This document shows, piece after piece, positions 15,624 to 30,144 of a stretch of DNA of 64,000 nucleotides. Below the pieces are notes generated by a model. It was not told the origin of the DNA. It worked only from the letters and a program-made list of their open reading frames with translations, and did no database searches. The stretch covers positions 1-64,000 of the forward strand of contig JANYHM010000040.1 in the NCBI GenBank assembly GCA_025359065.1, written 5' to 3'. Numbering within the stretch: position 1 is the stretch's first letter; the number at the start of each line of letters is the position of its first letter. The DNA comes from Synechococcales cyanobacterium GL140_1_metabinner_5_sub. Lineage in GTDB: Bacteria; Cyanobacteriota; Cyanobacteriia; Cyanobacteriales; Chamaesiphonaceae. The position numbers and the translations under genes are program-made.

Positions 15624-15662
15624 AGCCAAGCTGGCTACTAATGTTCTCAGTTCTTCATCGGT
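15624..15662 (-). pseudogene. Scrap of a small coiled-coil gene (paralogue of the 29126-29491 gene)
   Basis: These 39 bases match 29450-29488 with a single mismatch. Read on the minus strand they give TDEELRTLVASLA, the N-terminus of the 121-aa coiled-coil protein at 29126-29491 (TDKELRTLVASLA). No other part of that gene is present. The scrap lies about 70 bp beyond the 3' end of tRNA-Met, just as its full-length sibling lies beyond the 3' end of tRNA-Val. Confidence 0.75.
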
Positions 15663-15729: not shown

Positions 15730-15734
15730 GATAA

Positions 15735-15807
15735 TGGCTCGAGGCAGACTTGAACTGCCGACCGAAGGCTTATGAGTCCTTAGCTCTACCGACTGAGCTA
15801 TCGAGCC
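15735..15807 (-). tRNA. tRNA-Met (CAT anticodon, probably elongator)
   Basis: On the minus strand the 73 nt fold as a cloverleaf: a 7-bp acceptor stem GGCTCGA/TCGAGCC with discriminator A, D-arm GCTC...GAGC, anticodon stem AAGGA/GCCTT with loop CTCATAA (anticodon CAT), a 5-nt variable region and T-arm GGCAG TTCAAGT CTGCC. The innermost anticodon pair is an A-G mismatch. CCA is not encoded. A CAT anticodon is also used by initiator tRNA and by tRNA-Ile with lysidine; the fully paired first acceptor pair argues against initiator, while tRNA-Ile(k2C) is not excluded. Confidence 0.9.
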
Positions 15808-15861
15808 AAACAAAGCGAACTTCATATTAGCACGACCAGCCCAGATTTGGCTACAAAAAAC

Positions 15862-27192: not shown

Positions 27193-27253
27193 TTTCATAC
27201 CAATATGAAAAGACCCGTCGAACTTCGACGGGTCTTTTCATATTGGTATGAAA
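27193..27253. terminator. Bidirectional terminator, perfect 29-bp stem
   Basis: Bases 27193-27221 are the exact reverse complement of 27225-27253, with a 3-nt loop (ACT). The stem core is AAAAGACCCGTCGA/TCGACGGGTCTTTT, so A and T runs serve both strands. It lies between the stops of chlI (+) and thiC (-), four bases from the latter. Confidence 0.92.
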
Positions 27254-27257
27254 AACC

Positions 27258-28740
<1,483 letters not shown>

Positions 28741-28741
28741 C

Positions 28742-29125
28742 CATCACAGAATTCTAACACCGAGTTTGGGTTAGTTTCATCTCGTCAACAAATTTAATAC
28801 TTGGCGATTGCTCTCATCTGCAACGCGATCAGTGTAAGGCGAAATTTCTTTATTTCTTGCTACCTTAAAACTGCCTTTCTTGAGCTATACCCCAAAGAGT
28901 AGCACTTTCTAGATACCCTTCCAAGCCAATGGACACAACAGAACTCGAATCTGTGACCTCTTCGATGTCAACGAAGCGTACAAGTCCGCATAACCTTTTA
29001 CTGGAAGCAGATTCAACGACTGGAGAAAATAGAGGTGGTCTAATCGCTGGTCAGATGGCTGTTTTATGGCAGAGTTAAACGTTAGTCAAAAACCGTGAAA
29101 ATCTTGCTGAGTAAGGCTTGCGACG
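28742..29125. other. Gap containing the left copy of the tRNA-derived repeat
   Basis: No ORF. The promoter of thiC should lie at the left. The 50-bp tRNA-Val copy begins at 28929. The rest (28979-29125) belongs to the mini-element described separately. Confidence 0.55.
28929..28978 (-). repeat. Truncated tRNA-Val copy (att-like 50-bp direct repeat, left)
   Basis: These 50 bp are identical to 29817-29866. On the minus strand they give the tRNA from the anticodon stem to the 3' end (T-arm and acceptor 3' strand included), but nothing of the 5' half. This is the arrangement left by integration at a tRNA 3' end. Confidence 0.85.
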
Positions 29126-29491
29126 TTACGGTTCTTCTAGCTTGGTAATTCGTCCCCGATCGGCCTTGTTATCGCTAATGACAATGCCCAGCATTTGCTT
29201 CATTTCGGTAATGTCGTTTCTCAGGTGGTCAAGATTTCTGGCAGTGCTAGCTGATAGCTTGAGGGCTTCGGCTGCCAACTCTAAAGAATTTGCTACCGTC
29301 TCAGTGTTGTAAGTCATCCCTTCCCGCATCAACTCTATGCTTCGGGCTTGGCTCTCAGCAGTTTCCCGCAGTGATGTAAGGCCATTGGTTAAATCTCTAA
29401 TAGCTTCGGTATTGGTACGGGCTTCGGTTGCATTGTTGGCCGTCGATACAGCCAAGCTGGCTACTAATGTTCTCAGTTCTTTATCGGTCAT
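29126..29491 (-). CDS. Small coiled-coil protein carried by the tRNA-Val element
   Basis: 121 aa. After MTDKELRTLVASLAV, residues 20-115 are Ala/Thr/Glu/Leu-rich heptads (RTNTEAIRDLTNGLTSLRET) and predicted to be one coiled coil with no membrane segment or catalytic motif. Similar short proteins starting MTDEELRxLVAS are, from memory, widespread multi-copy families in cyanobacterial genomes with no known function. A 39-bp scrap of a second copy lies at 15624 beside tRNA-Met. It is the only gene between the two tRNA-derived repeats. Confidence 0.7.
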   Translation of the reverse strand: MTDKELRTLVASLAVSTANNATEARTNTEAIRDLTNGLTSLRETAESQARSIELMREGMTYNTETVANSLELAAEALKLSASTARNLDHLRNDITEMKQMLGIVISDNKADRGRITKLEEP

Positions 29492-29816
29492 GAGATGCTA
29501 TCCTCTATTTCGATCTTAATCTAATTGGGATGCTTCAGCGTTAATTTGTAGCCCTCTGCCCCACGCCCAAGATTCAAAACCCAATGCTGCCTGGTGAAAA
29601 AGAGAATAATAAACCAATAATTCAGTATCACTAGTAAAATTTTGCTAGCTTAGCTGACACCCTACAGCCGTTGTTAATAGAAAAGCTAAAATCCAGAAAA
29701 AGCGAGTATCTTGCGCTCTCTGGTCTGCTTTTATGTCACTAATTTGGGTTTGAATTCCTTATTTGGCTTACCGCCAAGTGCTAACGCACTCTGGCAGAAA
29801 TACTTCGGAAGTTTAG
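29492..29816. other. Non-coding right part of the tRNA-Val element
   Basis: About 325 bp between the coiled-coil gene start and the right repeat. It should hold the gene's promoter. I see no ORF or strong repeat. Confidence 0.45.
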
Positions 29817-29817
29817 A

Positions 29818-29891
29818 TGGACACAACAGAACTCGAATCTGTGACCTCTTCGATGTCAACGAAGCGCTCTAACCAACTGAGCTATGCGTCC
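29818..29891 (-). tRNA. tRNA-Val (GAC)
   Basis: On the minus strand: acceptor GGACGCA/TGTGTCC (one G-T pair) with discriminator A, D-arm GCTC...GAGC, anticodon stem CTTCG/CGAAG with loop TTGACAT (anticodon GAC), variable AGGTC, T-arm ACAGA TTCGAGT TCTGT. All stems pair. CCA is not encoded. Its 3' half (49 bp plus one flanking base) is repeated exactly at 28929-28978. Confidence 0.95.
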
Positions 29892-30144
29892 AGGATTCTT
29901 CATTGTACACAAGAGTTCGTCGATTGTAAACCTTTCCTTCCCGGGTAACTGGCTGTTTTTGATGATCCGATGCAATTGGGATTAGGCCATCATGGCCTAG
30001 ATTAAGATTTTGAAAAACCTATGAATTTTTAATGTGTAACTTAACAATTGCGCACATTCGCTGCCCCGATCGATCTAGGAGAGGGTGTAAACTCAGTAAT
30101 ATTATTGGCTACTAACTTCAGATTTGCCTTCCCAAAACATCAGC

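Follow-up and report, generated by a model that had tools for sequence, protein, structure and literature searches.

An 888-bp unit between tRNA-Val repeats in a cyanobacterial genome, probably a collapsed integrative element

Cis-mobilizable elements (CIMEs) are by definition decayed ICEs or IMEs (PMC5704250, PMC7563491), and two size classes are described among them: classical CIMEs of 1.2–13 kb and microCIMEs of 130–220 bp, which are without genes (PMC7563491). Here we describe an 888-bp unit at the 3' end of tRNA-Val(GAC) in a cyanobacterium. The stretch of DNA analysed, hereafter the window, comprises bases 1–64000 of contig C108 (64,000 nucleotides) within a 3.92-Mb, 121-contig genome (G000). 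Set against these accounts, the unit resembles a CIME in lying at a tRNA 3' end with an att copy on each side, in holding no integrase or transfer genes while retaining cargo, and in having decayed relatives in tandem at the same tRNA target in a genome of the same genus, G001 (PMC5704250, PMC7563491). It differs in size, its 888 bp and one gene falling between the classes described in PMC7563491, and in the gene content of its kin: CIMEs derive from ICEs or IMEs (PMC5704250, PMC7563491), whereas no relaxase or conjugation genes occurred among the related-element proteins scanned. Compared with an autonomous tRNA-Val tyrosine-recombinase island, the unit has the displaced tRNA 3' end but no integrase of its own, and the tRNA-Val integrase has no match in the whole genome. 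We found no account of this locus in the literature, in searching that was not directed at the locus by name.

Our reading is that the unit is very probably a collapsed, CIME-like tRNA-Val integrative element. Its kind is ordinary, a known genomic scar, and its size is unusually small; the oddity is that two tRNA sites have been reduced to the same gene.

The unit and its repeats

The integration target is an intact tRNA-Val(GAC) on the reverse strand (29816–29892), recognized by both ARAGORN and Rfam. The initial annotation reported an exact 50-bp copy of the 3' half of this tRNA at lower window coordinates, and direct sequence comparison bore it out: 28929–28978 and 29817–29866, both on the reverse strand, are identical at 50 of 50 bp, stand 888 bp apart from start to start, and lose identity immediately at both edges. 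The second of these is the tRNA-side att copy, inside the tRNA gene, and the first is the distal att copy, a displaced tRNA-Val 3' half. The Rfam tRNA model (RF00005) picks up the displaced piece (28930–28987) at 34 bits, above the Rfam cut-off; the tRNA 5' part is absent from it and its edge is sharp.

To judge how unusual such a copy is, each of 36 tRNAs of the genome was scanned for copies of itself in up to 6 kb of downstream sequence, less at contig ends. A long self-copy was found for tRNA-Val only, with a score of 50; none of the other 35 tRNAs scored above 13 (top scores 7–13), and an opposite-strand control gave 6–13. The score of 13 belonged to tRNA-Thr, whose copy is anchored at the exact 3' end of the tRNA (positions 59–72 of 72), and tRNA-Val and tRNA-Thr were the only tRNAs with an exact downstream copy of their 13 terminal bases (36 tRNAs, 332,520 downstream bases). 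A chance repeat was rejected, the 50-bp self-copy being unique to tRNA-Val among these 36.

The 838 bp between the fragment and the tRNA hold a gene with paralogues elsewhere, an intact 121-aa reading frame on the reverse strand (29126–29491), and no trace of a tRNA-Val integrase. The earlier description of a single-gene unit without an integrase therefore stands as far as the intact gene and the missing integrase are concerned, and needs amending in one respect: the 3' remnant of a second gene, encoding a coiled coil and a hydrophobic tail, is also inside (29645–29758, reverse strand; tblastn E 1.5e-13). This remnant contains two in-frame stops, one of them directly before the conserved part, and its relative in G001 is an intact 95-aa ORF. 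The presence of a truncated second gene implies that the unit was formerly larger.

The tRNA-distal end of the unit (28979–29125) is non-coding and, from 28991 onwards, homologous to the matching end of a second unit at tRNA-Thr, described below. Just outside the displaced fragment, bases 28912–28928 (reverse strand) resemble the bases that immediately follow tRNA-Val in G001; arm-like sequence in this position is expected if it is the native downstream flank of tRNA-Val. On the other side, where relatives have arm sequence after tRNA-Val, the window has a hairpin segment (29767–29815). Its core (29773–29795), GCCAAGTGCT-NN-CGCACTCTGGC, recurs exactly on contig C117 of G001 and with two core mismatches on contig C68 of G000 (loci L113; L138), and was considered as a candidate att arm.

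To the left of the unit lies a 474-aa ORF (27258–28682) which, given the TPP riboswitch upstream of it, we take to be thiC-like. The riboswitch is on the reverse strand (28651–28748; Rfam RF00059, 56.1 bits). The ORF is followed closely by a long, almost perfect palindrome (27193–27253), probably its terminator.

The 121-aa gene and its copies in the genome

AlphaFold2, run on a two-row alignment, predicts the 121-aa protein to be a single long helix (residues 3–118, mean pLDDT 95, pTM 0.48). Nothing matched it in Pfam at the curated cut-off (best E 0.006) or in PHROGs below E 0.02, and no recombinase match was found in either. Plasmids and phages gave no match by tblastn and viral contigs none to the gene, while a scan of genome contigs returned one locus, in G001. 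Of 291 genomes examined from the order, two, which belong to the same genus, carry the family; it was not found in the sister genus (g2). PADLOC produced weak matches only (best E 0.0009), of the sort that coiled coils produce, and we do not take them to indicate a defence role. The G001 relative contains in-frame 42-bp repeats (L028 3361–3570), from which the coiled coil seems to grow via tandem duplication. Among four copies of the gene, pairwise dN/dS is 0.17–0.25, values that come from paralogues, with several dS near or above saturation; at about 0.2, the gene looks to be kept by selection. Its product may be a soluble coiled-coil cargo, kept by the host or its elements for a putative benefit.

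Other units with the same gene and a tRNA 3' repeat had been proposed as a check, and a second reduced unit was indeed found, at tRNA-Thr. On contig C20, a gene for a 139-aa relative (83% identical to the window protein) sits between tRNA-Thr and a 13-base copy of its 3' end, 764 bp downstream. An alignment of the Val and Thr units that runs from beside the distal att copy through the gene has 575 columns with 76% identity; the tRNA-proximal sides are unrelated. On the proximal side of the Thr unit, a 24-residue stretch resembles integrases of g2 (tblastn E 8e-4; about 5 bits and E >1 by profile) and, when 2700 frame pieces were scanned with a profile, ranked just under the two genuine recombinase loci and level with another copy of the same locus. 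As a putative integrase relic it is suggestive only.

Further relatives of the gene occur on contigs C9 and C6, with no tRNA 3' fragment beside either. In the window itself, 39 bp from the beginning of a family member survive (15624–15662, reverse strand) 3' of tRNA-Met(CAT) (15734–15808); this shred matches the C20 and C9 copies at 39 of 39 positions and the window copy at 97%, and at the corresponding place beside the orthologous tRNA-Met of G001 there is a 327-aa integrase. The tRNA-Met genes of the window and G001 differ by a paired swap in the T-stem, which is what an integrating foreign 3' end would leave. A short dispersed repeat was also seen upstream of several gene copies (L007 2873–2900, L008 3053–3081).

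Elements at the same tRNA in related genomes

G001, the sole same-genus genome returned by the searches, has the same right-hand neighbour at tRNA-Val as the window, while the window's left neighbour, the thiC-like ORF, has no match there. Downstream of its tRNA-Val, three tRNA-Val 3' copies delimit two tandem elements with repeat-to-repeat lengths of 2898 and 2465 bp, each with a broken tyrosine-recombinase gene. The tRNA-proximal element carries a C-terminal integrase fragment beside the tRNA, ORFs of 320 and 128 aa, and, beside its distal repeat, a 196-aa relative of the window gene; gene order and direction agree with those of the window unit. The integrase of the second element is in pieces. 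Homology between G000 and G001 ends exactly at the tRNA 3' end, at Val and at Thr alike, and beyond the gene and the att copies we detected nothing similar to the DNA of the window unit in the elements of G001.

In g2, tRNA-Val(GAC) was found in seven of nine genomes, the match in G009 being tRNA-Val(TAC) and G008 having none. Downstream sequence was readable in five of the seven, the contig ending after about 215 bp in G006 and after 11 bp in G002 (C74). Four of these five have an integrase directly 3' of tRNA-Val, full in G003 and G004 and truncated in G007 and G010; G005 has none. On another contig of G002 (C47), an integrase, a relative of G001's 320-aa ORF and a DUF3854-DUF927 protein come after a displaced tRNA-Val 3' end. 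The tRNA-Val integrases of G001, G002, G003 and G004 match one another and form one family. A clean empty tRNA-Val site was found in neither G001 nor g2; G005 is without an adjacent integrase, but its synteny differs.

The most complete unit is that of G004, with an integrase, a DUF3854 protein and a resolvase; at a distance of 11.9 kb the tRNA-Val sequence is repeated exactly over 46 bp, and a second integrase just past this repeat makes a tandem array here too, as in G001. (In G003, no distal repeat was found within 40 kb.) The G004 element and the window unit share the target tRNA, a repeat of the tRNA 3' half (46 versus 50 bp), and the order of the repeats relative to the tRNA. They differ in that the window unit is without integrase, DUF3854 protein and resolvase, and the 121-aa gene was not found in the G004 element. 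Repeats matching those of the window thus bound integrase elements in relatives, and the derivation of the window unit, which holds just the 121-aa gene and the broken second gene, from an integrase element is supported by these relatives and by the relic.

No tRNA-Val-type integrase was found anywhere in G000. Its two tyrosine recombinases show no match to the tRNA-Val integrase family at E 1e-4 and have no tRNA nearby within the sequence stretches fetched. Elsewhere in the genome, an 8.4-kb contig (C2), possibly a plasmid or phage, carries two unusual adjacent tRNA-like genes (L076, 501–643), one of them found by Rfam and not called by ARAGORN.

Origin of the unit

Integration at the tRNA 3' end, as first proposed, is well supported by the relatives and the internal relics. 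Collapse of a larger island, one of two origins offered in the initial annotation, is likewise well supported, by the related integrase elements at the same tRNA in G001 and g2 and by the broken second gene. For the ancestor's size and content, the order of deletion and any remaining mobility, we infer the following course. An element of several kilobases with a tRNA-Val-specific tyrosine recombinase would have integrated by crossover within the 3' half of tRNA-Val(GAC), its own copy restoring the tRNA and the old 3' half being displaced to 28929–28978. Later deletion from the tRNA-proximal side would have removed the integrase and neighbouring genes and cut into the second gene, leaving only the element's far end, with the 121-aa gene and, next to the distal att copy, about 150 bp. 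Such a remnant would be incapable of self-excision, but both att copies are still there, so that a newly arriving element with matching specificity might insert alongside it or carry it off in cis. Several observations weigh against this course: G001 and g2 offered no clean empty site, the unit bears no trace of the tRNA-Val integrase, the putative integrase relic of the Thr unit is weak, and the DNA of the unit resembles the G001 elements only in the gene and the att copies.

The other origin offered at the outset, a minimal mobile unit with one cargo gene between att sites, moved in trans by the integrase of another element, now seems very unlikely. The tRNA-Val and tRNA-Thr units do contain one and the same gene and have the end beside the distal att copy in common, as a defined minimal mobile unit would, which counts against collapse; the gene shred beside tRNA-Met and the dN/dS of about 0.2 between copies point the same way. 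However, G000 has no tRNA-Val-type integrase to supply movement in trans, which leaves such movement unsupported; the Val unit contains a truncated second gene, the two units have nothing in common at their tRNA-proximal ends, and the C9 and C6 relatives have no adjacent tRNA fragment. Those same two copies, together with the short dispersed repeat upstream of several copies, would suit a single-gene cassette spread by ordinary recombination and lying near tRNAs by chance or through shared dispersed repeats. We regard this as highly improbable, as it does not account for the tRNA 3' end being copied exactly over 50 bp at Val and 13 bp at Thr, the only two such cases among the tRNAs scanned. 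A tandem tRNA-Val duplication followed by decay of one copy, which had been named as the alternative at the outset, is hardly credible: the displaced fragment is tRNA-like enough to pass the Rfam cut-off, but it is without the 5' part and sharply edged, 838 foreign bp intervene, and in relatives, integrase elements lie between fragments of just this pattern.

The perfect identity of the repeats cannot be taken as a sign of recency, as had been suggested. In G001 the outermost repeat is identical to the window tRNA-Val at 43 of 43 positions, yet neither integrase of the array is intact, and near-perfect repeats around such decayed elements mean that repeat identity is no clock. By our estimate, zero differences over 50 bp limit divergence only to roughly 6%.

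Whether the 121-aa gene is itself the cause of the unit's persistence is a separate matter. Independent collapse of integrative elements of this genus at tRNA-Val and tRNA-Thr to one gene under purifying selection, whether domesticated by the host or carried in a minimal att-flanked unit still mobile with the aid of helpers, is an idea that we hold to be rather unlikely. If selection did keep the same gene twice, the two units would offer a handle on the cargo genes that hosts retain. The locus shows how far a cyanobacterial tRNA-integrated element can shrink and still retain its two att copies and a gene apparently under selection. In this family, tRNA-Val(GAC) is documented as a site of recurrent integration, where tandem arrays occur.
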